64,000 bases of DNA from Rubrobacter tropicus (GTDB lineage Bacteria > Actinomycetota > Rubrobacteria > Rubrobacterales > Rubrobacteraceae): contig NZ_CP045119.1 in NCBI RefSeq assembly GCF_011492945.1, positions 1,364,001 through 1,428,000 of the forward strand. The letters are read 5' to 3'. Below are positions 9,614 to 42,766 of this stretch, piece by piece (the first letter of the stretch is position 1; each line of letters begins with the position of its first letter). The notes under the pieces were generated by a model, which saw only the letters and a program-made list of their open reading frames with translations, did not search any database and was not told the origin of the DNA. A program made the position numbers and the translations under genes.

Positions 9614-9616
9614 CCG

Positions 9617-9682
9617 GCGGTTCGTGCAGCGAACCGCGCTTTCAGCTTTCGGCCGTCAGCTTTTTTTGTTCTGCTGACGGCC
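9617..9682 (+). repeat. Post-stop modular repeat, copy G (two hairpins)
   Basis: A mini-hairpin GCGGTTCG/CGAACCGC (9617-9637) is followed by the linker CTTTCAGC, then a perfect 10-bp inverted repeat GGCCGTCAGC (9651-9660) and GCTGACGGCC (9673-9682) with seven Ts in its loop. It begins four bases after the rplI stop. The TTTCAGC and GTCAGC words are the building blocks of the family described at 21790-22140. Confidence 0.65.
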
Positions 9683-9777
9683 CGGCCTCTTGCCGGAACG
9701 CTTGTCCTCCCGGGATACCTCGGGAGGGGTGGGTGTAGTTGAGGTGTAGGTTTATGTATGACCTGGACCAGAAGGTG

Positions 9778-14834: not shown

Positions 14835-14900
14835 CTCGCCTCCCGGGGCTTCGTCCCTCACAAAGTCCGGCACAGTCTACGGAAAGAGCAAAGAGCTTTC

Positions 14901-15059
14901 AGCGGTCAGCTATCAGCCAGTCGTCTCGATCCGTCACGCCGCCCGTTGCCCGAACCGTCGGATATGGCGCCGCCCGGTGGGGACCTGGGCGGCAAGAAGC
15001 TGACAGCTGATAGCGAGGGGCTGCAAAGCAGGCCCGACGCGTGCTGATAGCTGACCGCT
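14901..15059 (+). repeat. MITE-like element, copy B, with 17-bp perfect terminal inverted repeats
   Basis: AGCGGTCAGCTATCAGC (14901-14917) and its exact reverse complement (15043-15059) bound a 159-bp element. The interior 14918-14998 is the conserved core: RTCGTC at its left end, CGTCACG at offset 14, CCCGGT at offset 55 and GGCAA at offset 73. These blocks sit at the same offsets (within one base) in copies C and D. The right arm contains GCGAGGGGCTGCAAAGCAGG. The element ends exactly where the sulfatase stop codon (CTA, 15060-15062) begins. No reading frame is evident inside. Confidence 0.8.
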
Positions 15060-17012
15060 CTACTCGGTCGTCTCCTCCTGCGGGCGTTGCTGCTCGTAGG
15101 AGTCCGTGACGCGGGCCTCCCAGGCCAGCAGGTCGTCCCGGAGGTCCTCTATCTTCTTGTCGCCCTGCTCTTCGATCAGGTTTTTCTTCTCTTCGGGATC
15201 TTCCGAGAGGTCGTAGTACTCCTCGCCGCGGTTGCCGTAGGAGTAGATGTACTTCTTATCCCCGTCGATGCTCGCCAGGCAGGTGCGCTCGTGGTAGCAA
15301 CTCGCCACGAGCCTTCGGTCCTCCGGCGGAGAGAGAAGCGAGAAGCCGGGGTAGTCGCCGCCTTCCACCCTGTACCCGAGCATGTCGGCGACCGTCGGCA
15401 GGACGTCGAGTTCGTTGACGTTCTCCTCGACGCGTCGCGGTTCGGGGTTCTTGGGATCGTGGACGAGGAGGGGGATGTGGAGGCCTTCCTGGTAGATCGT
15501 GTTGTCGTGCTGCTTGAGGCCGTGTTCGCCGAAACCCTCGCCGTGGTCGCCCAGGATCACGAATATGGTGTCCTCGTAGAGCCCGAGGTCCTTGTACTGG
15601 TCGAAGAGCTTCTCCAGAAAGAAGTCCTGGTAACGGACGGTGTTCAGGTACCTGTTCAACTCCGGGTCTGACGAGTACTTCTTCGTGCCGTAGCGCTGCG
15701 GGACCACGTAGTTGTGGTGGGGGGTGACCGTCAGGTACGTGGTCATGAACGGGCCGTCGTCGGCGTTCTCTTCGAGCCAGGCGCGGCTGGGCTTCAGCAT
15801 GATCTCGTCCTCGAACCCGAAGTAGTTGACGCGCTGGTAACCCGTCTTGCTCATGTCCTCTATCGCCTGGAAGTGCCCGTACCCGAAGTTGTCCACGAGC
15901 TGGGGCCTGCGCTCGAAGGTCTCGGTGGCCGACTGGAAGAAGGCGCTGTTGTAGCCCTGCTCTTCCAGGAGCTCCGGCAAACACCGGGCCGGGATGATGC
16001 CAGGCTCGGACTCCGTCTTCTGGGTGTCGAGGGGCGGAGGCACCCCGCAGGCGGTCGCCACCAGCGCCTTTGAGGTGTGCGGGACCACGGCGTGGGCCCG
16101 CTCCGCCATCAGGCTCTCTTCGGAGAGTTCGTCCAGGAACGGCGTCGTGTCGATCTCGTCGTTGTACGCGGTCGTCGATTCCGCGCGCGTCGACTCGAGG
16201 AAGACCAACACCACGTTTCGTTTCTCGGTCTCGGGCGTGGGGGAGAGGCTCGTGTCCGTCGGGAGGGATTCCGGGGAGACGTTCGCCTCGACCTCCGTCG
16301 TGGCGACCTCGTTGACCACCATGTTCGCCAACGGGTCCCTGGCGAAGGCGTTGCCCGCGTTGGTCACGCTCGGCACTACCGAAAGGGAGAAGAGCAGGAC
16401 GGCGGCCAGGCCGACGGTGAGCGGGGCCCGGCCCGGGCTCCCCGGGGCGTCCGGCTGGGGATCCCAGGTGCCGGTAAACAGGCGGGTCAGCAGGGCCGGG
16501 CCCGCGAGGGTGTAGAAGAGGATGACGGAGACCAGGGCCCAGTGCAGGGTCGTCGTCTCCGAGCCGATGGCGCCCTGGATCTCCCCGATCGAGGAGATCG
16601 AGACGAGCACGAAGCTCAGGTCCAGCGTCGAGCCCGTGGTCGTGTAGAAGAAGTGGGCGCTGGTGGTCAGGATCACGACCACCACGACGGCGAGGTGAAA
16701 CAGGATCAGGACCGCGCGCCTGGGCCAGCCGCCCCTCACGACGGCGAAGACGCCGATCCAGAGCGCCGCGAACCCGAGGTTGAAGAGGAGGTCGGAACGG
16801 ACCTGATCCAGAAAACCGAGAAAGCCGGGCGGGTCCGGACGGGTGACTATGCGGACCACTTTGAGCACGAGGTTGTAGACGACCAGGGGCACGAGTAAGC
16901 TCGCGAGGTAGATCCAATCCCCACGCGTCAACAACCTGTCGAGGCGCTTCACGACGCCCGCCCTGCCTTCGTTTGCCGCCTCAAATGCGGCAGAGTTTAA
17001 CAAAATTTTCAC
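15060..17012 (-). CDS. LtaS-like membrane sulfatase / phosphoglycerol transferase family protein
   Basis: 650 residues. About five membrane helices fill residues 35-240, followed by an extracytoplasmic sulfatase-fold domain. The metal site is visible as NVVLVFLESTRAEST (nucleophile Thr or Ser region) and later VILGDHGEGFGEHG (Asp-His pair). The architecture matches lipoteichoic-acid synthase and related polymer-modifying enzymes, which transfer phosphoglycerol or phosphoethanolamine, or hydrolyse sulfate esters. The substrate is not known. GTG 17012 is given as start; GTG 16952 (VKRLDRLLTRGDW) is an alternative because TTAAACT between the two could be a -10 box. The acs gene diverges from it. 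Confidence 0.8.
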   Translation of the reverse strand: MKILLNSAAFEAANEGRAGVVKRLDRLLTRGDWIYLASLLVPLVVYNLVLKVVRIVTRPDPPGFLGFLDQVRSDLLFNLGFAALWIGVFAVVRGGWPRRAVLILFHLAVVVVVILTTSAHFFYTTTGSTLDLSFVLVSISSIGEIQGAIGSETTTLHWALVSVILFYTLAGPALLTRLFTGTWDPQPDAPGSPGRAPLTVGLAAVLLFSLSVVPSVTNAGNAFARDPLANMVVNEVATTEVEANVSPESLPTDTSLSPTPETEKRNVVLVFLESTRAESTTAYNDEIDTTPFLDELSEESLMAERAHAVVPHTSKALVATACGVPPPLDTQKTESEPGIIPARCLPELLEEQGYNSAFFQSATETFERRPQLVDNFGYGHFQAIEDMSKTGYQRVNYFGFEDEIMLKPSRAWLEENADDGPFMTTYLTVTPHHNYVVPQRYGTKKYSSDPELNRYLNTVRYQDFFLEKLFDQYKDLGLYEDTIFVILGDHGEGFGEHGLKQHDNTIYQEGLHIPLLVHDPKNPEPRRVEENVNELDVLPTVADMLGYRVEGGDYPGFSLLSPPEDRRLVASCYHERTCLASIDGDKKYIYSYGNRGEEYYDLSEDPEEKKNLIEEQGDKKIEDLRDDLLAWEARVTDSYEQQRPQEETTE

Positions 17013-20169: not shown

Positions 20170-20790
20170 ATGGAAGACGTTCGTCGGATAACGAAGAGGC
20201 GGCGCAGGCTCCGGACCGTGGGGGAGCCGCACCCGTGGGAGCCCCGCCACATGCGCCTGGCGGGCGTGCGCGTCGCCGAGTCGGTTGGGAAGCCGGCGGC
20301 CCGGCGCAACGTCACTTTGGGCGTCGTGAAGCACCTCTGGCGCTCCCCGGTCCCCTTCGTCGGGTTCTACCCGCCCGAGGGCGTCAAGGTCACCGAGCAC
20401 CGCAAGTACGTCCCCCGGTCGCCGCGGCGGGTGGACGACACCGAGTACCTGGCCGGCGTCGAGGCCCACAAGAGGTCCTTCGCCAAAGACCTCCAGGACG
20501 GCATGGTCCCGTCAGGACACCTTCCGGGCTACTTCGAGGTGCCGACCGACGAGGGGTGGCGGATCACCCTGGATCTCGTAGAGGGACGGCTGGAACTGGC
20601 AGACGCCTGGGGGCTCGGAACCGAGTCGAAGGTGGCCGGGGACCTCGCCCCCTTCGTCTGGGCTTACAGGCATTGCGGCTTCTGCATCGTCAGCGTCTAC
20701 GACAAGGACGTCGACGGCCTGCGCGACGACCTCCTCTTCGTCGCCAAACGCCAGGGCGTGGAACTCAGGTGGACCAGAAAGGCCGCTTAA
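20170..20790 (+). CDS. Conserved hypothetical protein
   Basis: 206 residues from ATG 20170. No signal peptide or membrane helix is present. The N-terminus is strongly basic (RRITKRRRRLRTVGE), and the middle contains PFVGFYPPEGVKVTEHRKYVPR and HLPGYFEVPTDEGWRITLDLVEG. The C-terminal HCGFCIVSVYDKDVDGLRDDL has two cysteines. I do not recognise the family. Base composition and codon use match the neighbours. The start follows an extended -10 box by nine bases, suggesting a very short or missing leader. A repeat element begins two bases after its stop codon. Confidence 0.6.
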   Translation: MEDVRRITKRRRRLRTVGEPHPWEPRHMRLAGVRVAESVGKPAARRNVTLGVVKHLWRSPVPFVGFYPPEGVKVTEHRKYVPRSPRRVDDTEYLAGVEAHKRSFAKDLQDGMVPSGHLPGYFEVPTDEGWRITLDLVEGRLELADAWGLGTESKVAGDLAPFVWAYRHCGFCIVSVYDKDVDGLRDDLLFVAKRQGVELRWTRKAA

Positions 20791-20791
20791 G

Positions 20792-20873
20792 AGCGGTCAG
20801 CTATCAGCGCGCTCCGGCTTCGCCTCCGCTCTCAGCCATCAGCAAAAGCCAAGCGAGCTGAAAGCTGACCGCT
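20792..20873 (+). repeat. Post-stop repeat, copy F, same 17-bp terminus as copy B
   Basis: AGCGGTCAGCTATCAGC (20792-20808) is identical to the left end of copy B; the right end GCTGAAAGCTGACCGCT (20857-20873) matches it inverted in 16 of 17 positions. Inside is one mini-hairpin module, GCGCTCCGGC TTC GCCTCCGC, then TCTCAGCC. The 80-bp core is missing. It begins one base after a TAA stop codon. Confidence 0.7.
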
Positions 20874-20994
20874 GAAAGCTGGCAGCGCGATTCGCGGAGC
20901 AAATCGCCACAAACAAGAGCGCTTACAGGAACGATTCTCAAAAAAGTACACCTAAAGATGCATCTGGTGGGCGCGAGGCGTTAGAATGTTTGGG

Positions 20995-21060: not shown

Positions 21061-21789
21061 ATGCTTTTGAGCCACAACACCGGGGGATTCGCCGCGACGA
21101 CCGCGCCCGAAGGGTTCAGCCTCGAAGATTTCGAGGAGGTTGGCCTCAGGACGGTGGAGCGAAGGTTTTCGCCCAAAGACACCATCTTCGCGCCGGGGGA
21201 CCCCGACGATCAGCTCTACTTTCTTCTTTCGGGCACGGTTCGTCTGTACAAGATCTACGGCGACTTCAAGGAGGCGACCACGGCGCTGCTCAAGAACGGC
21301 GGCATCTTCGGCAAGCTGAACCTCGTCGAGGGCCGCTGGCAGAACGTGTTCGCCGAGGCCGTCACGGAGGCGCGGGTCGCCGGCGTTCAGAAGAGCTCGC
21401 TTGAGATGGTCATAAAGAGGGACCCCGCGTTTGCCCTGAAGCTCTTCTCCTCTTTCTCGGAGCGGCTCCGCCAGTCGGACGAGGTCATAGAGAGCCTTCT
21501 GCACCGGGAGGTCTCGACCCGGCTCGCTACTCTGCTCAGCAACCTGGACGACCGCTTCGGCCGGGAAAACGGGAAGGGTTCGCTGATAGACGTGCGGCTC
21601 ACGCACCAGGATCTCGCCAACATGATCGCCTCCACAAGAGAGGCCGTCTCCAAGGTGATGAGCGAGCTCCAGCGCGAGGGCGTCATAGAGAACCGCAACC
21701 GCCGCATAGCCATCCTCGACCGCACGGCCCTCGCCGAGCACGCCTCGAGGCTCTCGGGCCTCACCGTCGACGGACAGACACAGATCTAG
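21061..21789 (+). CDS. Crp/Fnr-family transcriptional regulator
   Basis: 242 residues. The N-terminal cyclic-nucleotide-binding fold is visible from FSPKDTIFAPGDPDDQLYFLLSGTVRLYK through GGIFGKLNLVEG. The C-terminal winged helix holds LTHQDLANMIASTREAVSKVM, the Fnr-type recognition helix. The usual PRAS-like phosphate cassette of true cAMP binders is not obvious, and there is no N-terminal cysteine cluster for an iron-sulfur centre. The effector is therefore unknown. The gene is single, with its own -10 box, and is followed by the longest repeat element of the window. Confidence 0.88.
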   Translation: MLLSHNTGGFAATTAPEGFSLEDFEEVGLRTVERRFSPKDTIFAPGDPDDQLYFLLSGTVRLYKIYGDFKEATTALLKNGGIFGKLNLVEGRWQNVFAEAVTEARVAGVQKSSLEMVIKRDPAFALKLFSSFSERLRQSDEVIESLLHREVSTRLATLLSNLDDRFGRENGKGSLIDVRLTHQDLANMIASTREAVSKVMSELQREGVIENRNRRIAILDRTALAEHASRLSGLTVDGQTQI

Positions 21790-22140
21790 CGCCGGCAAAG
21801 CCGGCGCGCACGCTGCGCCCTTCGGGCTCCGCTTTCAGCCCGGCGCCGTTGGCGCCTTGTCAGCACGCTCCAGCCTTCGGCTTCCACTCTCAGCACGCCT
21901 CCCTGCGGGAGGCTTTCAGCCCAGTCGTCCGTAGGCGTCACGCTTTATGACACTCGAATCGCAGCGCCATACGTGGCCCGGTTGGGCTTCGCACGGCAAA
22001 AAGCTGAAAGCGGAGGCGCAGCCGGAGCGGGCTGAGAGCGAGGACTGCGAAGCAGGCCGATGCCTGCCGAAAGCGAAGCCCTTAGGGCGCAGCGTGCCGA
22101 AAGCTCGCGAAGCGAGCGTGCTGCGCCGGAAACCTTTCCG
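21790..22140 (+). repeat. Modular inverted-repeat element, copy C (mini-hairpin arms around an 80-bp core)
   Basis: This gene-free stretch of about 350 bp starts right after the regulator stop codon. The left arm is a chain of mini-hairpins (for example GGCGCC/GGCGCC, CCTCC/GGGAGG) joined by linkers of the type T-T/G/C-TCAGC. The core (21922-22001, 80 bp) has CAGTCGTC, CGTCACG at offset 14, CCCGGT at 55 and GGCAA at 73. The right arm carries inverted modules (GCTGAAAGC, GCTGAGAGCGAGGACTGCG, AGCAGGCC). Bases 21861-21898 match 41613-41650 of copy D, inverted, in about 35 of 38 positions. No coding capacity is seen. Confidence 0.75.
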
Positions 22141-22151
22141 GCGCGAGGGCG

Positions 22152-24324: not shown

Positions 24325-24761
24325 AGGGTTCGCGCAGCTTCGACGGGCGAGCCGTCTGCCCGCTACCGAAACCCCGGCCCTCACGCCTCCATATTGTCTA
24401 CCGGTGCTTCGGTAAAGGCGCGTCCGCCCTCCACGTTTGGCCGCGAGTCGACGGAGACAAACGAAAAGCAAGAAGAGTTCGCGGTTGCCGTGGCAACAGG
24501 GTCGCCCAGGCTAAAGCGGATGGCCCGATGGTTCGAGGATAGTCTCCGATAGGGCCGATGCCGCGAGCCGACTCGGGCGTTCGCCAGCCCGTACCGGGGC
24601 CCTGCTCTCTTGTGCGGGTGGCACAAGAGAGCAGGAGTTGCGACGGGCGAACTCCTGTACTGAGGCGGGGTCGCGCCGGGTTTCGCGGTGATGTAACTTG
24701 GCTCATGTATCTCCAGGACTCGACACAGAAGAAAATGCTGGGAATGCAAGGGAGGGAAGAC
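24325..24761 (+). other. Long gene-free leader before the first peptide-binding protein
   Basis: 437 bp with no convincing gene. Small stems occur at GTTGCC/GGCAAC (near 24484-24497) and ACCG/CGGT. The major structure is the pair of overlapping hairpins at 24601-24657, described separately. A possible -10 box TATTGT lies near 24392. The length and structure suggest a regulated 5' leader. Confidence 0.5.
24601..24657 (+). promoter_or_regulatory. Two overlapping, mutually exclusive hairpins upstream of the peptide-binding protein
   Basis: Hairpin 1 is a 15-bp perfect stem: CCTGCTCTCTTGTGC (24601-24615), loop GGGTG, GCACAAGAGAGCAGG (24621-24635). Hairpin 2 pairs CAGGAGTT (24632-24639) with AACTCCTG (24650-24657). 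They share 24632-24635, so only one can be complete. There is no U-run after either. This could be an attenuator, a translational switch, an mRNA-stabilising stem, or an operator for a dimeric protein. Confidence 0.55.
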
Positions 24762-26462
24762 TTGAACGGCAAGGCAAAGGGCGGGCTCGGCGCCGACAGG
24801 GTTCTAAGCCTCAAACCGGTAACGCGCAGGGACTTCCTCAAGGTCGGTGGCGCAGGGCTGGCCGGGACGGTCCTGCTTGGCGGTGCGGGGTGCGGCGTGT
24901 TCGAGGGGGGCGGCCAGCAAGAGCAGGGGGCCGGTGGCGGCAGCAAGGTATTCAACGACTATTACGAGGGCGACATCGTGGACATCGTCTCCACGACCAC
25001 CACGGACATTTACTCCTTCTCGATCCTGAACAACGTGATGGAGGGGCTCTACCGTCTCGATAAGAACACAGAGCCCGCGCCGGCCCAGGCCAAGGGCGTC
25101 GAGATCAGCGACGACGACATCACCTACACCTTTACGCTCAGGGACAGGCTCCGGTGGTCGAACGGCGATCCCGTCGTGGCGGAGAACTTCAGGTATGCGT
25201 GGCTCAGGGCCATGGGTCCCGATACGGCGGGCGACTACTCGTTTATCCTCACGGACTACATAGACGGCGGCGCGGAATTTTTGGCGGGGGACACCGATGA
25301 GGGCTCCGTGGGCCTGGAGGCGCCCGACGAGAAGACGTTGGTGGTCACCCTCACCAAACCGGCCCCCTTCTTCCTGGGGCTGACCTCTTTCCCAACCTAC
25401 CTGCCCCTCAACCAGGAGTTCACCGAGCAGCAGGGCGACCAGTTCGGGCTGAACCCGGACGCTCTGGTCTACAACGGCCCGTTCACGCTCACGGAGTTCA
25501 AGCCTTCAAGCCAGGCAGTGCTTCAGAAAAGCCAGGACTACTGGGACAAGGACAACGTGGGCGTTGAGCGGGTGAACGTCAGAATCGTCAAAGAAGACGA
25601 GACGGCGCTCAACCTCTACGAGGCGGGAGACCTCGACGTCTTCGCCCTCGCCGGCCAGTACTACAACGAGTTCCAGGACTCGCCGGAGTTCGAATCCTCA
25701 CCATACTTCTCCACCTTCTACCTCCATTTCAATGCTCAGGACGAGGCGATGGACAACCTCAACATCCGCAAGGCCATCCAGATCGGCTACGACCGCCGGA
25801 TCGTGGCCGACAGGATCCTGAACGACGGTTCGCGGCCGGCGGTCGGGTTCGCACCGATAGGTATTGCCGGTCCTGGAGGCGAGACCTTCCGCGAGGCGAC
25901 GGGAGACACCTTGCCTGCTTTCGACGCCGGGGAGGCCAGGCGGCTCTTCGAGCAGGGGTCCGAAGAACTGGGTGGGGCGCCTCCCTTGACCATCCTGGTC
26001 AGCGACGACGACACCTCCAAGGACTTCGGCGCCTTCGTGCAGGAGGAGTTGAGCAAAAACCTGGGCGCCGATGTAAAAGTCACGTCGTTGCCCTTCGACG
26101 CACTCTACGAGCGTACAAACGACAAGGATTACCAGATCTCGGCCTACTCCTGGATCGGGGACTACAACGACCCGATGACGTTTATGGACCTCTGGCTCTC
26201 GGAGTCCGGGTTCAACACCGTCAGCTTCTCGAACGACCGCTACGACGAGCTCATCAGCGGCGCGAAGGCGGAGCCCGACAATGACCGGCGGATGGAGATG
26301 ATGGCCGAGGCCGAAAAAATACTTCTCGAGGAGAACGCCGCGATAGGCCCTATATCCCACGGTGCCCTCGCGAGGCTCGAGAAACCATACCTCAAGAACT
26401 ACGTGGCCCACCCCTACGGCGCCGCCGCAGAATACAAGCCCTTGCGCCTCGAAGGCAAGTAG
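24762..26462 (+). CDS. Peptide ABC transporter substrate-binding lipoprotein (family 5), Tat-exported
   Basis: 566 residues from TTG 24762, six bases after GGGAGGGA. The N-terminus has the twin-arginine motif TRRDFLKVGG and a lipobox LLGGAGC, so the protein is folded before export and anchored outside by a lipid. The rest follows the OppA/DppA fold (ANNVMEGLYRLDK-like region: NVMEGLYRLDKNTEPAPAQA; later GDYNDPMTFMDLWL). It is a paralogue of the next gene (26710-28419), which has the same Tat signal and layout. Only the second binding protein lies directly beside the permease genes, so both may feed one transporter with different peptide ranges. Confidence 0.9.
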   Translation: MNGKAKGGLGADRVLSLKPVTRRDFLKVGGAGLAGTVLLGGAGCGVFEGGGQQEQGAGGGSKVFNDYYEGDIVDIVSTTTTDIYSFSILNNVMEGLYRLDKNTEPAPAQAKGVEISDDDITYTFTLRDRLRWSNGDPVVAENFRYAWLRAMGPDTAGDYSFILTDYIDGGAEFLAGDTDEGSVGLEAPDEKTLVVTLTKPAPFFLGLTSFPTYLPLNQEFTEQQGDQFGLNPDALVYNGPFTLTEFKPSSQAVLQKSQDYWDKDNVGVERVNVRIVKEDETALNLYEAGDLDVFALAGQYYNEFQDSPEFESSPYFSTFYLHFNAQDEAMDNLNIRKAIQIGYDRRIVADRILNDGSRPAVGFAPIGIAGPGGETFREATGDTLPAFDAGEARRLFEQGSEELGGAPPLTILVSDDDTSKDFGAFVQEELSKNLGADVKVTSLPFDALYERTNDKDYQISAYSWIGDYNDPMTFMDLWLSESGFNTVSFSNDRYDELISGAKAEPDNDRRMEMMAEAEKILLEENAAIGPISHGALARLEKPYLKNYVAHPYGAAAEYKPLRLEGK

Positions 26463-26582: not shown

Positions 26583-26709
26583 GCCGCAAGACAAATCTTG
26601 ATGCCGCACCGAAGAAGTCGTCCGAAGCCGGGGGGATTCGTACACCGATCATACGCTAGTACCTGGCGTTTTTGCGTGCGGCGGGCACCGGGATTAGAGA
26701 GGAGAAATC

Positions 26710-28419
26710 ATGACCAGAAAGAAAATGCGGCCCATGATGCCCAGACCGTTGGACCTCGCGAGGTTCAGCCGCCGGGACTTTCTGAAGATGGGCGGGACGG
26801 GCCTGGCCGGCGCCGCCTTGCTAGGCACCGCCGGGTGCGGCAGCCTCTTCGGGGGCGGGCAGGGCGGGGGCAACGGCGGCGGGGGCGGTGGTGGCAACTC
26901 CATCACCATCAACCTCGGGGACGCCATCAGGGACCTGAACTCCACCACCACCACCGACTCCGTATCCACGGACGTCCTGCTCAACGTCATGGACGGCCTC
27001 TACCGGCTGGACGAGAACACCGAGGCGCAGCCGGCTATCGCCGAGGGCGTGGAGATTAGCGACGACCAGCTCAACTACACCTTTACGCTGCGTGACGGCG
27101 TGCAGTGGTCCGACGGCTCGCCCGTCACGGCGCAGGACTTCGAGTATGCCTGGTTGCGGGCGCTCGACCCCGAGACGGCGGGCCAGTACGCCTTTATCAT
27201 CGGCCAATTCGTCGAGGGCGGCACGGAGTTCAACGCCGGCGAGGGTAGCCGGGAGGACGTGGGCATCCGGGCCACCGACGATAAGACGCTCGAGGTTACG
27301 CTGGCGGCGCCGGCGCCGTTCTTCCTCGGCCTCACCTCGTTCTTCACCTACCTGCCCCAGAAGCAGAGCTTCGTCGAAGAGCAGAGCGACAACTACGCCC
27401 AGGGCGCCGACGGCCTGCTCTACAACGGTCCTTACACCCTGACGGAGTTCAACTCGACAAAGGGCGTGACCTTCGAGAAGAACGACCGCTACTGGAACGC
27501 GGACAACGTGGACATCCCGAAGGTCGAGGCCGTGATCGTAACGGAGCAGGACACCATCGTGAATCTCTACGAAGGCGGCGACCTAGACGTGGCCGGCCTC
27601 AGCGCGGAGTACGTGGACGAGTACCGGGATTCCCCGGAGTTCAACACGCAGACGTTCTTCGCCACCTTCTACCTCACCTGGAACTACGAGAACGAGATCT
27701 TCCAGAACTCGAACATACTCAAGGCCATCCAGATGGGCTTCGACCGGCAGGCCATAGCCGACCAGATCCTCAACAACGGCTCCAAGCCCGCAACCGGGTA
27801 CGTGCCGGAGGGCATGGCCGCGAACGGCGGGGACGATCAGACCTTCCGCGAGGTGCAGGGCCCGACGGTGCCGGAGTTTAACGCGGATGAAGCGCGCAGG
27901 CTCTTCGAACAGGGCGTCGAGGAGCTCGGCCAGGAGCCGGGCGAGATAGAGTTGCTCGTCTACGAGGGCGACCCGGCCGAAGACGTGGCGGCGTTTTTGC
28001 AGGAGCAGTTCAGGAAGAACCTCGGGCTGCAGACCCGTATCAAAGTCCAGCCCTTCGACGCCAAGCTCCAGCTCGAAGCCGACGGGGATTTCGAGATGTC
28101 CTGGCAGGGTTGGATCGGGGACTACAACGACCCTATGACCTTCCTCGACCTGTACCTCAGCGACTCGTCCTTCAACACCGGCGGCTACCAGAATGACCAG
28201 TACGACCAGCTCATCACCGACGCGCAGGCCGAGGCCGACCCCGCCGCTCGCCTGGAGTTGATGCAGGAGGCGGAGAGGCTGCTGGTGGAAGAAGACGCGG
28301 CCGTCGCGCCGATCTTCTTCGACGGCGAGGCAGAGCTCATCCGGTCCAACATCAAGAACTACGTGGACCATCCCTACGGCGGCGGTATAGACCTCAGCCT
28401 GTGGAGGCTCGAGGGATAA
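26710..28419 (+). CDS. Peptide ABC transporter substrate-binding lipoprotein (family 5), Tat-exported
   Basis: 569 residues from ATG 26710 with GAGAGGAG upstream. Twin-arginine motif SRRDFLKMGG and lipobox LLGTAGC give a Tat lipoprotein, then a glycine-rich tether. The binding domain begins near residue 65 and carries the family features NVMDGLYRLDENTEAQPAIA and GDYNDPMTFLDLYL. It parallels the previous gene throughout and looks like a tandem duplicate. It is followed by two permease and two ATPase genes; an interlocked pair of hairpins after its stop could raise its expression over the permeases. Confidence 0.92.
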   Translation: MTRKKMRPMMPRPLDLARFSRRDFLKMGGTGLAGAALLGTAGCGSLFGGGQGGGNGGGGGGGNSITINLGDAIRDLNSTTTTDSVSTDVLLNVMDGLYRLDENTEAQPAIAEGVEISDDQLNYTFTLRDGVQWSDGSPVTAQDFEYAWLRALDPETAGQYAFIIGQFVEGGTEFNAGEGSREDVGIRATDDKTLEVTLAAPAPFFLGLTSFFTYLPQKQSFVEEQSDNYAQGADGLLYNGPYTLTEFNSTKGVTFEKNDRYWNADNVDIPKVEAVIVTEQDTIVNLYEGGDLDVAGLSAEYVDEYRDSPEFNTQTFFATFYLTWNYENEIFQNSNILKAIQMGFDRQAIADQILNNGSKPATGYVPEGMAANGGDDQTFREVQGPTVPEFNADEARRLFEQGVEELGQEPGEIELLVYEGDPAEDVAAFLQEQFRKNLGLQTRIKVQPFDAKLQLEADGDFEMSWQGWIGDYNDPMTFLDLYLSDSSFNTGGYQNDQYDQLITDAQAEADPAARLELMQEAERLLVEEDAAVAPIFFDGEAELIRSNIKNYVDHPYGGGIDLSLWRLEG

Positions 28420-28484
28420 CGAGCCGTTGCAGGGATTCGGCATGATGCGTGGAACGGCTCGTTACCAGGGTCGCTCCACGCATC
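28417..28484 (+). promoter_or_regulatory. Interlocked inverted repeats (pseudoknot topology) between binding-protein and permease genes
   Basis: Stem A pairs 28417-28428 (TAACGAGCCGTT) with 28453-28464 perfectly over 12 bp. Stem B pairs 28444-28453 (GATGCGTGGA) with 28475-28484 over 10 bp. The 5' arm of B lies in the loop of A and the 3' arm of A lies in the loop of B, which is the H-type pseudoknot arrangement; one base (28453) is shared. Stem A begins within the last codon of the binding-protein gene. Confidence 0.65.
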
Positions 28485-30400: not shown

Positions 30401-31438
30401 TTGGCGACGTTGAACGGCGCGAACGACGCCATCCTGCAGGTAAAGGACCTGCGCATCTCCTTCTCAACCTACGCCGGCGAGGTGCAGGCCGTGAGGGGCG
30501 CCTCTTTCGACCTCCGTAGGGGCGAGACGCTGGCGATCGTCGGTGAGTCCGGCTCGGGAAAGTCGGTCGCGGCGAGAAGCATTATGAGGTTGAACCCGCC
30601 GGCCAACACCCTGGTTCGGGGGGGCGAGATCCTCTTCGAGGGTGAGGACATCCTCAAGCATTCCGAGAGACGGATGCAGGGCATCAGGGGGCCGAAGATA
30701 GCGATGGTCTTCCAGGACCCTATGACCTCCCTCGACCCGACGATGCGGGTCGGACGCCAGATCTCGGAGAGCCTCACCAAGCACCTCGGGATGAAGGGTC
30801 GCCGGGCGACGGAGCGCGCGGTGGAGCTTCTGAAGCTGGTCGGCATCCCGAACGCCGAGGAGCGCGTCAAGCAGTACCCGCACCAGTTCTCGGGCGGGAT
30901 GCGCCAGAGGGTCGTCATAGCCATCGCGCTCTCGTGCGACCCGCAGATACTCATAGCCGACGAGCCGACGACGGCCCTCGACGTCACGATCCAGGCCCAG
31001 ATCCTGGACCTCATGCGCGAGTTGCAGGACAGGATAGGGACTTCCATCATCCTGATCACGCACGACCTCGGCGTCGTCGCGAGCACGGCCCACCGCGTCG
31101 CCGTCATGTACGGCGGCAGGATCGTCGAGACTGGAACGGTCCGCGAGATCTTCTACAACCCCCAGATGCCGTACACCTGGGGCTTGCTGGCCTCGATCCC
31201 GCTCCCCAACGCCGACAGGAGCCAGGAGCTCATACCGATCCCCGGCACCCCTCCCAACGCCCTCGACCCGCCGAAGGGCTGCCCGTTCACGGCCCGCTGC
31301 CCCTACGCCATGAAGGTCTGCGAGGGTGAGATGCCAGACAAGACCACGTTCTCGAACGAACACTGGGCCGCCTGCTGGCTGCACCACCCGATGGCCCCGA
31401 AGGGCGAGCCCCCGGTCCGGGTCAGGGGGCAGCGATGA
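30401..31438 (+). CDS. Peptide ABC transporter ATP-binding protein, DppD/OppD type
   Basis: 345 residues from TTG 30401, one base after the permease stop. Walker [10 protein letters not shown], signature FSGGMRQRV, Walker [13 protein letters not shown] and H-loop LITHD are all present. The C-terminal oligopeptide-transporter extension has the cysteine pattern [15 protein letters not shown], which in related proteins binds an iron-sulfur cluster. It powers transport as a heterodimer with the next gene product; the four-base overlap ATGA couples their synthesis. Confidence 0.94.
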
Positions 31439-32439
31439 CGGACGGGACCACGAACGGCGGCCCGAACGGGAGCGCGAACGGGCAGGCGCTGCTCCAGGTC
31501 AAGGACCTGAAGAAGCACTTCCACGTCGGGCGCGGGGCAATGCTCAAGGCCGTGGACGGGATCTCACTTGAGATAAAGAAAGGCGAGACCTTCGGCCTGG
31601 TGGGCGAGTCGGGGTGCGGCAAATCGACCGCCGGGCGGACCCTGATCCGGCTCTACGAGCCATCGGGCGGCCAGATCGTCTACGGCGGCAGGGACATCAG
31701 CCAGGCGACGGGCGAAGAGGCGCATTCTCTCAAGCGCAAGATGCAGATGATCTTCCAGGACCCCCAGGCCTCCCTGAACCCGCGCATGGTAGTCGGCGAC
31801 ATCGTCGCCGAGGGCATCGACATCCACGGCCTCGCGGACAGCACGAAAGAGCGCAACGACCGGGTCCAGGAGCTCCTGGAAACGGTCGGCCTGAACCGGG
31901 AGCACGCCAACCGCTACCCGCACGAGTTTTCCGGGGGACAGCGCCAGAGGATCGGGATAGCGAGGGCTCTGGCCGTCGACCCCGACTTCATAGTGGCCGA
32001 CGAGCCGGTCTCCGCCCTCGACGTCTCCATTCAAGCGCAGGTGATCAACCTGATGAAGAAGCTCCAGAGGGAGCGCAACCTCACCTACATGTTTATCTCC
32101 CACGACCTCTCGGTGGTGAAGTACATAAGCGACCGCGTGGGCGTCATGTACCTGGGCGTGATGGTCGAGATGGCCCCGAGCGACGAGTTGTACTCGAACC
32201 CGGTCCACCCTTACACCCAGGCCCTGCTCTCGGCGGTCCCGGTCCCCGACCCGGACGTGGAGAACGAGCGGGAGCGGATGGTGCTCGAAGGCGACGTACC
32301 GAGCCCGGTGAACCCGCCTTCTGGTTGCCGCTTCCGCACCCGCTGCCCCTACGCGACCGAGGCCTGCGCCCACGACGAGCCGGTCTGGCGCGAGGTCAGC
32401 CCGGAGCACTGGGTCGCCGCCTGCCACTGCATCGACTGA
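31435..32439 (+). CDS. Peptide ABC transporter ATP-binding protein, DppF/OppF type
   Basis: 334 residues. Walker [10 protein letters not shown], signature FSGGQRQRI, Walker [14 protein letters not shown]-loop FISHD. The DppF-type C-terminal extension with [15 protein letters not shown] holds conserved cysteines. It is the last gene of the first peptide-transport operon. The unusual N-terminus is a glycine/asparagine-rich tail ([12 protein letters not shown]) before the ABC domain, also seen in the paralogue at 38090. Confidence 0.94.
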
Positions 32440-37073: not shown

Positions 37074-38093
37074 GTGGCGATGCTGGAGGTGAACAACCTC
37101 AAGACGCACTTTTCGACCCAGGACGGGGTCGTCAAGGCCGTGGACGGGGTCTCGTACTCGCTGGAGCCCGGAGAGACCCTGGGGATAGTGGGGGAGTCCG
37201 GGAGCGGCAAGAGCGTGACGGCGCTCTCGGTCATGCAGCTAAACCCCAAGCCGCCCGCCTCGTACCCGGAGGGTGAGATCCTCTTCGAGGGCCAGGACCT
37301 CCTCAAGGTGCCCGAGAAGAGGATGCAAGAGATCCGGGGCAACGACATAGCCATGATCTTCCAGGACCCCATGACGAGCCTCAACCCGGTCTTTACCGTC
37401 GGAAACCAGATCCGGGAGGCCATCCGCATCCACCAGGACGTCTCGAAGTCCGAGGCGTCCGAGAAGACCGTCCAGGTTCTGAAAGACGTAGGGATAGCCA
37501 ACCCCGAGCGCAGGGCGAAAGAGTACCCGCACCAGTTCTCCGGCGGGATGCGCCAGCGGGCCATGATCGCGATGGCGCTCTCGTGCAACCCGAAGGTCCT
37601 CATAGCCGACGAGCCTACGACGGCGCTCGACGTGACGATCCAGGCCCAGATCCTGGAGCTGATGGTGGACTTGCAGGAGAAGTACGGCACCGCGATCGTC
37701 ATGATCACGCACGACCTCGGAGTCGTCTCCCAGATAGCCGACAAGGTGATGGTCATGTACGCGGGCCGCGCCGTCGAGCAGGCGACCACCGACGACGTCT
37801 TCTACGACCCGCTGATGCCGTACTCGTGGAGCCTGCTTCGGAGCCTGCCGCGCCTCGACACCGCTGGCGAGGTGAGGCTGCTCCCGATAGAGGGTACGCC
37901 GCCGTCCCTGATCTTCCTCCCCGACGGCTGCAACTTCCACCCCCGCTGCCCGTTCGCCAAGGACGAGTGCCGCACGGTGGACCCCGCGCTAGAAGAGAAG
38001 AAGCCGGGCCACGAGGCGGCGTGCATCCTCTCTGTGGAGGAGATAGAAGCGAGCAAGAGCCGCGTGGACCAGGAGCTGGGGGTCGGGGGATGA
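37074..38093 (+). CDS. Peptide ABC transporter ATP-binding protein, DppD type
   Basis: 339 residues from GTG 37074, eight bases after GAGAGGAGG. Walker [10 protein letters not shown], signature FSGGMRQRA, Walker [14 protein letters not shown]-loop MITHD. The C-terminal [14 protein letters not shown] motif is the oligopeptide-transporter extension with conserved cysteines. Overlaps the next gene by ATGA. Confidence 0.94.
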
Positions 38094-39163
38094 CCGAGGC
38101 CGTGGCCACGAACGGGAGCCCGAACGGTCGTCCCGCCGAGAACCTGCTGGAGATGCGGAACCTGAAGATGCACTTCCCGATCAAGGCGGGCGTCTTGAGG
38201 CGGACGGTGGGCCACGTCAAGGCGGTCGACGGGGTCGACCTCGCCATCCGCAAGGGCGAGACTTTGGGCCTCGTCGGCGAGTCCGGCTGCGGCAAGAGCA
38301 CGCTCGCCCGCCTCGTCCTGCGCCTGCTCGAACCGACTGAGGGCGAGGTCCTGTTCGACGGCGAGAACATCCTCGGCTTCGACCGCAAGCGGATGCTCGG
38401 CGTCAGGCGCAACATGCAGATCATCTTCCAGGACCCCTACGCCTCCCTGAACCCCCGCATGTCCGTGGGCAACATCATCGCCGAGCCCCTGAAAACGCAC
38501 GACGTCGGCGATGGCCCCGGGCGCAAGAAACGGGTGCAGGAACTCCTCGAGGTCGTCGGCCTCAGCCCCGAGCACTACAACCGCTACCCGCACGAGTTCT
38601 CGGGCGGCCAGCGCCAGAGGATCGGGGTCGCCAGGGCCATAGCGCTGAACCCGCGCCTCATAATCTGCGACGAGCCGGTGAGCGCGCTTGACGTCTCGAT
38701 CCAGGCCCAGGTCGTGAACCTGCTCCAGGACCTCCAGAAAGAGTTCGACCTCACCTACGTCTTCATAGCCCACGACCTCTCCGTCGTGAAGCACATCTCG
38801 GATCGGGTCGCGGTCATGTACCTCGGCAAGATCGTGGAGGTCGCCGACCGCAAGGACCTCTACGACCACCCCCGCCACCCCTACACCGCCTCGCTCCTCT
38901 CGGCGATCCCGGTCCCGGACCCCCGCAAGGAGCGCGAGCGCAGGCGCGTGGTCCTGACCGGCGACGTGCCGAGTCCCGCCAACCCGCCTTCGGGCTGCCA
39001 CTTCCACACCCGCTGCCCCCGCGCCCAGGACTACTGCAAACAGAACGAGCCGCCCCTGGAGCCCCAGGAGAGCGAAGACCACCGCGCCGCCTGCTTCTTC
39101 CCCGTAAAAGAGGGGCAGAGGATAGACGATGCAGCCACGAGCACGCCATACCGCGTCGAATAG
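38090..39163 (+). CDS. Peptide ABC transporter ATP-binding protein, DppF type
   Basis: 357 residues. Walker [10 protein letters not shown], signature FSGGQRQRI, Walker [14 protein letters not shown]-loop FIAHD. The cysteine-containing extension is [15 protein letters not shown]. Like the OppF paralogue at 31435 it has an Asn/Gly-rich N-terminal tail ([10 protein letters not shown]). It closes the second peptide operon; a repeat element follows its TAG stop with only 12 bases between. Confidence 0.94.
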
Positions 39164-41208: not shown

Positions 41209-41379
41209 GTGAGCATCGCCATCGTATCCTTGCTTCTTTTGATCCCGCTGGCGATCCTCGGGATCATACTCTTCGCCGTGATCTCCGGACGGGCCACGGG
41301 GCGCAACGAGAACCGCCCCGGGGGCACGGGCAGCGACGAGACCAGGCCCGGGGACAGGGGCCCCGGCGGGGAGGAATAG
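41209..41379 (+). CDS. Small single-pass membrane protein (56 residues)
   Basis: GTG 41209 to TAG 41377-41379. One hydrophobic helix (IAIVSLLLLIPLAILGIILF) is followed by a hydrophilic Gly/Pro/Arg-rich tail ending RGPGGEE. AGAAAGG lies seven bases before the start and a possible -10 box TAGTAT near 41149. The clear helix-plus-tail design, ribosome site and promoter support a real gene, but no family is recognised. Confidence 0.6.
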   Translation: MSIAIVSLLLLIPLAILGIILFAVISGRATGRNENRPGGTGSDETRPGDRGPGGEE

Positions 41380-41671
41380 CGGGCTCCTCCCTTCGGTCGT
41401 CGCGCACGCTCCGGCTTACGCCTCCGCTTGTCAGCCCGGCGCTTCGCGCCTCGTCAGCACGCCCTCTCCGAGGGCTTTCAGCCTATCAGCCAATCGTCTT
41501 GGCGCGTTACGGCTTCGCGACATCTGAACCGACGCGCGACTCGCGGCCCGGTCGGGCCCTCGACGGTAAATAGCTGACCGCTGAGAGCGAGGACCTGCGG
41601 AGCAGGCCCGAAGCGTGCTGAAAGCGGAAGCCGAGGGCTGGAGCGTGCTGAAAGCCCGCGAAGCGGGCGTG
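41380..41671 (+). repeat. Modular inverted-repeat element, copy D, between two convergent stop codons
   Basis: The 292-bp space is filled by this element. It begins after the small-protein stop codon and ends at the rpoD stop codon (CTA, 41672-41674). Left-arm modules include GCTCCGGC TTAC GCCTCCGC-TTGTCAGC, GGCGC TTC GCGCC and CCCTC TCC GAGGG-CTTTCAGC. The core (41491-41571, 81 bp) has CAATCGTC, CGTTACG at offset 14, CCCGGT at 56 and GGTAA at 74. The right arm carries inverted modules and AGCGAGGACCTGCGGAGCAGG, the counterpart of copies B and C. Confidence 0.78.
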
Positions 41672-42766
41672 CTAATCGAGCAGGTCTCTGAGCCCCGCGG
41701 CGTGGGGGCTGCTCTTTATCTTGGCGAGGGCGGTGAGTTGTATCTGGCGGATGCGCTCGCGGGTTACGTCGAAGCGCTCGCCGACCTCTTCGAGGGTCTT
41801 GGGTTGGCCGCCGGTGAGGCCGAAGCGGTATTCGAGGACCATGCGTTCGCGTTCGGGGAGGCTGCTGAGGGCCTCGCGCATCCTCGCTTTTAGCAGGGAG
41901 GACTTGGCGAGGTCGTGGGGGGATTCCGAGTCCTCGTCGGCTATGAAGTCGCCGAGTTCGGAGGAGTGGTCTTCGCCCACGGGGGTTTCGAGGGAGATGG
42001 AGCGGCGGGAGACGCGGCGGATGCGGACTATCTCCTCGGCGTCTACTTCCATGATGGCGCCGACCTCTTCGTCCGAGGGGTCGCGGTTCAGTTGGGCCGC
42101 GAGGCTGCGCTGGACGCGGTAGTACTTGTTGATCTTCTCGACCATGTGGACCGGCACCCGGATCGTGCGGCCCTTGTCCGCGATGGCGCGGGTGACGGCC
42201 TGGCGGATCCACCAAGTCGCGTACGTCGAGAACTTGAAGCCCTTGCGGTGGTTGAACTTCTCGACGGCGCGCATCAGGCCGATGTTGCCCTCCTGGATCA
42301 GATCCAGAAGAGAGACGCCGCGGCCTGCGTACTTCTTGGCTATGGAGACGACGAGCCTGAGGTTTGCCTTCGTCAGGTGCGCTTTGGCCCGACGGTCCCC
42401 GCGCTCTATGCGCCGGGCGAGGTAGACCTCTTGCGCTTTGGTGAGGAGGGGGGTCTTGCCGATCTCGTCGAGGTACATCTGGACGGCGTCGCCGGTGTAG
42501 CGGCTCTTCAGGTCGGCCTCCAGTACCTCTTCGACGAGCTGGGTGTCTTCGTCCTCTTGCAGCGTCTCTGTGAGAAAACCCGCGTCCACCACCTCGACGC
42601 CGTGTTCCCGAAGAAGGCCGTAGACTTGCTGGATCTCGTCTGTCGAGAGATCCACTTCCTGGAGGAGTTCGAGCACCTCGCTCGATTCCAGGGTGCCGGT
42701 CTCTTGGCCGGCTTCGAATAGCCCTTGTATCTCCTCTATGTCCCGCAGATCGCGCTGTGGCTGCAA
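41672..42766 (-). CDS. Principal RNA polymerase sigma factor (RpoD/SigA family)
   Basis: 364 residues from TTG 42766, with GGAGAGAGAG upstream. Region 1.2 ([18 protein letters not shown]), region 2 ([20 protein letters not shown], then [19 protein letters not shown]), region 3 ([17 protein letters not shown]) and region 4 ([18 protein letters not shown]) are complete. An N-terminal part ([20 protein letters not shown]) corresponds to region 1.1. These are the marks of a group 1 sigma factor; a group 2 paralogue cannot be excluded. It directs most housekeeping transcription. It is convergent with the small membrane gene across a repeat element and has its own promoter. Confidence 0.93.

Follow-up and report, generated by a model that had tools for sequence, protein, structure and literature searches.

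BIMEs of Enterobacteria lie at the 3' ends of genes and in gaps between convergent ones, and their alternating REP units bind gyrase, IHF or Pol I. MITEs such as RUP, Correia/NEMIS and BOX are short, palindromic, dispersed and intergenic, and bacterial interspersed repeats in general are mostly read as decaying mobile DNA. CGTC-tagged REPs have been reported from five phyla, Actinobacteria not included (PMC3733652), and heptanucleotide repeats have been described from Calothrix, as GGGAATC of Xanthomonas and as TAACTGA of Beggiatoaceae, with those of Xanthomonas lying near ORF ends at kept positions and with variable length and sequence (PMC4692102, PMC4679880). Here we describe a family of elements in Rubrobacter tropicus of which three full copies lie in a 64,000-nucleotide stretch of its genome (the window). 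An earlier note on this DNA knew of no named family that would fit, and indeed the window elements have no Rfam match and a literature search, limited to sources outside subscription journals, found no paper describing such a repeat in Rubrobacter-like genomes; the family is apparently unnamed so far. We tentatively prefer to see these repeats as functional gene-end DNA elements in which a protein-binding core and inward-facing arms would mark or insulate the 3' ends of transcription units.

The three elements proposed to be related in the earlier note were re-found by direct reading and by profile, all on the forward strand (Table 1), and the cores that it had placed at 14918-14998, 21922-22001 and 41491-41571 agree with the profile matches. 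The blocks RTCGTC, CGTYACG, CCCGGT and GGYAA keep their reported spacing in the three window copies with one additional base in copy C, though CGTYACG is merely one variant when the whole family is considered, and free variation between the four blocks is refuted by further conserved columns (GAACCG, GCGC, GGGC and AAGCTGA). The mini-hairpins are real, as are the T-N-TCAGC linkers, which point inward and run inverted in the right arm; two copies also share an arm stretch in inverted orientation (21849-21901 with 41610-41662; 53 nt, 83%). The earlier note did not mention that stop codons lie directly against element A on the right, element B on the left and element C on both sides, nor the strand polarity of GNA loops in the arms, the period of seven of their linkers and the sites common to several species. 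Element A, with an outer inverted repeat of 17 bp that is perfect on direct reading, meets at its right end the stop codon of a sulfatase gene (15060-16952, reverse strand), read as CTA at 15060-15062 of the forward strand; the right arm of element B stops just upstream of a sigma-factor gene; and element C is bounded by TAG 41377-41379 and by CTA 41672-41674, the stop of a sigma-70 gene. Arms also occur without a core at two places in the window, both directly after stop codons (Table 1), and one of these arrays, 9614..9684, includes in addition a T-rich loop enclosed by an inverted repeat. Separately, two pairs of similar gene blocks that form direct repeats in the window (30600-32400 with 37250-38820 and 24700-26460 with 26700-28420; 71-79% identical) are paralogous gene clusters.

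Table 1. Full elements, their cores and coreless arrays in the 64-kb window.
Feature	Position	Strand	Description
Element A	14893..15059	+	Shortest copy; outer inverted repeat AGCGGTCAGCTATCAGC / GCTGATAGCTGACCGCT
Core of element A	14910..15009	+	Profile match, 78.9 bits
Element B	21790..22145	+	Left end directly after TAG 21787-21789 of a CRP-family regulator gene
Core of element B	21915..22013	+	Profile match, 77.4 bits
Element C	41380..41671	+	Occupies the entire convergent-gene gap, stop to stop
Core of element C	41483..41583	+	Profile match, 73.4 bits; one extra base
Coreless relative	20791..20882		Inverted NNTCAGC arrays and one mini-hairpin, directly after stop codon 20788-20790
Coreless array	9614..9684		Directly after TAG; one hairpin; TTTCAGC/TTTCGGC/CGTCAGC linkers

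A scarcity of further copies had been named as an outcome that would count against a repeat family, but profile searches returned 86 to 88 matches genome-wide with a best E of 2e-26, placing the family far beyond chance. The sequence-only profile R1, built from 24 copies, gave 88 matches at E<=0.1 of which 86 were kept, and profile R2 gave 86 matches at E<=0.001 in the R. tropicus genome. This 4.58-Mb genome carries ca. 86 cores of ca. 86 nt each, every one of them on the 4.38-Mb contig and, by profile search, none on the 205-kb second contig. Copies are somewhat clustered apart from one stretch of 457 kb without any core (G000:C1:3625816-4082992 of R. tropicus), compared with a mean spacing of 51 kb. 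The number differs strongly among congeners (86 versus 0-13), with 8 cores in each of G004 and G005, 11-13 in G003 and 5-8 diverged ones in G006. In another genus of the same family, the profile search found 8 weak matches in G014; outside the family there were only isolated marginal matches, and a search of a plasmid collection gave a single weak and unrelated one. The view that this is a conserved unit and not a set of decayed transposon ends is supported as well.

The core is conserved as sequence, with no support for a conserved fold. Across an alignment of 101 copies, median pairwise identity is 63% with several columns almost invariant, RNAalifold predicts zero pairs, and a mutual-information ranking yields no convincing Watson-Crick pair, while weak pairs seen with 24 copies disappeared in the larger set. 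Of the two options that had been offered for the core, a conserved fold or a protein-binding unit, this speaks against a conserved RNA fold and leaves protein binding as the better one; the absence of base pairs favors a double-stranded site, so that the core is most likely a putative double-stranded protein-binding site judging from its sequence. A coding core was likewise rejected, as no codon phase stands out and around half of the copies have stops in every frame. A helical (gyrase-like) periodicity of core conservation, such as a site of DNA wrapping might show, is not significant (P=0.24). Among 33 closer pairs of cores (74-98% identical; 29 within R. tropicus, two within congeners and two between species), 7.4% of conserved but 30.5% of variable columns differ (Fisher P=3e-32), which indicates that constraint acts on fairly recent copies, an argument that would be weaker if cores were often replaced by other functional copies.

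Read from the outside inward, an arm is composed of units of a mini-hairpin followed by T-N-TCAGC, with plain NNTCAGC heptamers between them, and the right arm is the inverse, so that two arms with linkers of period seven face inward around the core. When perfect hairpins with a stem of at least 5 are counted, 133 of 201 show, in the direction of the core, a triloop TNC with C-G as its closing pair in every case, and only four have a GNA loop in this direction; 20 further arm hairpins have TNNC loops. On the outward strand, these C-TNC-G and TNNC loops are C-GNA-G and GNNA, and GNA or GNNA loops on G-C stems are known as "extraordinarily stable" DNA mini-hairpins (PMC4686876). The loop is rare in controls (5/415 in coding sequence, 9/131 in gene tails without a core), and the 133 hairpins comprise 35 distinct stems, one of which supplies 43, so the preference is not merely that of one copied unit. 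Arms toward gene starts have the same loop polarity. The DNA folding parameters that we used assign equal energy to both strands and no special score to GNA loops. So extreme a preference, on one strand only, for a loop motif of DNA biophysics hints in a way rarely seen in sequence that hairpins of DNA, and not of RNA, matter. In the right arm at G000:C1:1621596, we noted a tandem array of 14-base units (GCTGACAGGCTGAGA-like), each comprising two heptamers.

All 86 cores are intergenic with none inside genes, and 82 of them adjoin a gene 3' end, as gauged from genes called with a crude, simple codon model over ca. 0.5 Mb around the elements plus the window. Convergent gaps hold 36 of the 86 compared with 69 of 505 in the background (P=8e-9); 46 lie beside one tail and four between divergent genes. 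At most tails, a base-by-base listing shows that the arm starts directly after the stop codon, and an automatic measure, coarse because outer units are often imperfect and therefore less telling than the listing, put the start within 15 nt of the stop in 83 of 112 tails. The stop beside an element is TAG in 87 of 114 cases versus 176 of 364 elsewhere. A palindrome with a stem of at least 6 encloses the stop codon in 15 of 112 tails (e.g., GAAGATCTAGGCGCCAAAGGCGCCTAGATCTTC), and several of these palindromes include coding bases, the longest being 15 bp. At G000:C1:2326551 and 1578869, the last codons and the stop are inside perfect palindromes of 14-15 bp. By eye, arms facing a gene start often stop shortly before a TANAAT-like sequence.

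Some of these sites are shared with congeners. Eight of the 14 congener cores examined in G003-G005 lie at seven gene junctions where R. tropicus also has a core (R. tropicus positions 3625816, 3222722, 4302384, 1215741, 4363226, 1116746 and 704469), and the chance of seven of 14 being shared is P ~4e-9 under our own estimate of ca. 2% junction occupancy. Core orientation is the same at six of the seven; at junction 1215741 (L107), which has a core in three species, the R. tropicus core is inverted relative to those of G003 and G004 (L161, L086). Identity between cores at a shared site is 57-70%, which does not exceed that of paralogs picked at random; 58% of their variable columns differ (near saturation) versus 16% of conserved ones. 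That particular core positions are kept at corresponding gene ends of different species, with the remaining ones saturated, makes function testable. The site at 3343714 matches a congener on one side only, two cores of G006 have no counterpart among the R. tropicus loci compared, and at other syntenic sites the congener has heptamer or hairpin arrays only, or nothing. At the sigma-factor site of element C, G003 and G004 carry a different intervening sequence (by eye, a glyoxalase-like gene), G002 has arms with a different centre, and in G006 the whole interval between the two stops is a perfect palindrome. In addition, whole elements have dispersed: ten pairs that we compared are 85-97% identical over 177-315 nt at unrelated loci, and homology between such copies often stops at or near the stop codon.

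This dispersal, together with the variable core number among congeners, is what one would expect if the repeat were selfish and non-autonomous, akin to MITEs or REPs, with insertion at stops (TA/CTAG-type targets) and no host function, its conservation reflecting the needs of a mobiliser. The enrichment of TAG and ends of the kind TA|GCACGC...GCGTGC|TA would fit a TA target, but clean TA insertion with target duplication, attractive as these ends are, was rejected since the syntenic congener sites compared gave no clean empty site with such a duplication. Element ends also differ among copies without a single terminal repeat, the second contig is free of cores, and the seven junctions common with congeners, mostly in the same orientation, argue against it as well. 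A RAYT-like transposase, which the earlier note had suggested looking for, was not found, as a search for Y1 transposases (PF01797) gave no match in the R. tropicus genome when five of 14 controls were positive; on this search, a RAYT-driven REP was rejected. Selfish dispersal is real and not exclusive of function, yet as the whole explanation we consider it possible only with some doubt.

We regard it as quite unlikely that the elements act as RNA hairpins, be it as bidirectional transcription terminators or as stabilisers of mRNA 3' ends, despite their position right after stops and in convergent gaps, the stop-to-stop palindrome of another species at the sigma-factor site and the strong folding of the three whole window elements (z -5.9, -4.3 and -2.4). 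There is no T-tract, and a consensus scan found no terminator-like site within B or C; one weak site of this kind (20783-20796) lies at the edge of the coreless array 20791-20882. Among one-tail sites, core orientation is split 27 versus 19 relative to gene direction without a clear tie, which is not as a simple terminator predicts. Stem mismatches in tail and head arms include 8 G.T versus 17 A.C and thus no G.T excess, speaking against upkeep of the stems at the RNA level, though these counts are small and come from related, non-independent copies; RNA selection on arm stems was dismissed for want of a G.U excess. An RNA UNCG tetraloop would need another register than the TNC triloop, and tail arms have just three TTCG loops. 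The polarity shared by arms toward gene starts and the core without a conserved RNA fold point in the same direction, and loop polarity combined with Watson-Crick stems favors hairpins at the DNA level. Very unlikely, finally, is a mutational by-product without any element as such, in which intergenic gaps free of constraint fill up with repeats and palindromes through polymerase slippage (period seven) and template switching. Bacteria are known for an excess of heptameric repeats (PMC4692102), the palindromes take in host codons, and TCAGC heptamer arrays occur in many phyla among the matches listed in a scan of ca. 85,000 species genomes, where several of those from other phyla come after a stop codon, L237, L246, L249, L261 and L309 consist of two arrays in inverted orientation about a centre, and many are plain tandem repeats. 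Such a process leaves unexplained why a homologous core of ca. 86 nt with constrained columns should recur at ca. 86 places and be retained at the same junctions; a by-product origin is therefore disfavored for the core and plausible for the arms.

Constraint, shared sites and gene-end placement thus favor a functional cis element, and a role at the 3' boundary of transcription units is likely by analogy with BIMEs. In a full copy, a core that most likely binds protein as double-stranded DNA would lie between two inward arms; copies are placed right after stops, most often where two transcription units converge, and probably mark or insulate the 3' ends of such units; we infer that a nucleoid protein, topoisomerase or termination factor would bind, as with BIMEs. 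The arms may work or arise at the DNA level, as suggested by their Watson-Crick stems and strand-polar GNA loops. Outer hairpins incorporate the neighboring stop and last codons, as expected from templated hairpin copying, and template switching is a known route to create and maintain perfect stems (PMC8794818). Whole elements would occasionally be copied to new gene ends and then be inherited by descent with a constrained core. Going further, a dedicated host protein might sit on the stop-adjacent core while GNA mini-hairpins extrude under transcription-driven supercoiling between convergent genes, with the cross-phylum TCAGC arrays as less elaborate relatives and the whole as a new element class, a version that we think unlikely in this specific form. 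The heptamers of other phyla nonetheless offer a route to ask how such arrays arise.

Among described systems, MITEs resemble the Rubrobacter elements in being short, palindromic, dispersed and intergenic, with modular arms recalling BOX and with near-identical copies spread in the genome, but constant terminal inverted repeats are missing, and no clean target duplication was found at the syntenic sites compared. Structured RNAs and intrinsic terminators are matched neither by covarying core pairs (101 sequences) nor by a GC hairpin with T-tract inside elements B and C. CGTC-tagged REPs are similar as short palindromic extragenic repeats without known transposase (PMC3733652), yet the arm hairpins of Rubrobacter are joined by TCAGC and lack the CGTC tag. 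With heptanucleotide repeats, the arms share an intergenic location and a period of seven, manifest in 145 exact four-unit TCAGC heptamer arrays in R. tropicus compared with none for a reversed control pattern (24 of 296 genomes of the phylum have such arrays), but two of seven positions are free, hairpins lie between the linkers, and the arms are opposed around a core. In placement, the elements are like BIME/REP sequences of Enterobacteria (see PMC2817692, PMC3733652). Instead of one fixed GTAG-tagged palindrome of 20-40 bp and a RAYT gene, the Rubrobacter elements have many different TCAGC-joined stems, a long non-palindromic core, arms with period-7 linkers and GNA triloops. Like BIMEs, they number around 10^2 extragenic copies with palindromic units in both orientations and a bias to 3' ends and convergent genes, and they combine dispersal with long persistence.
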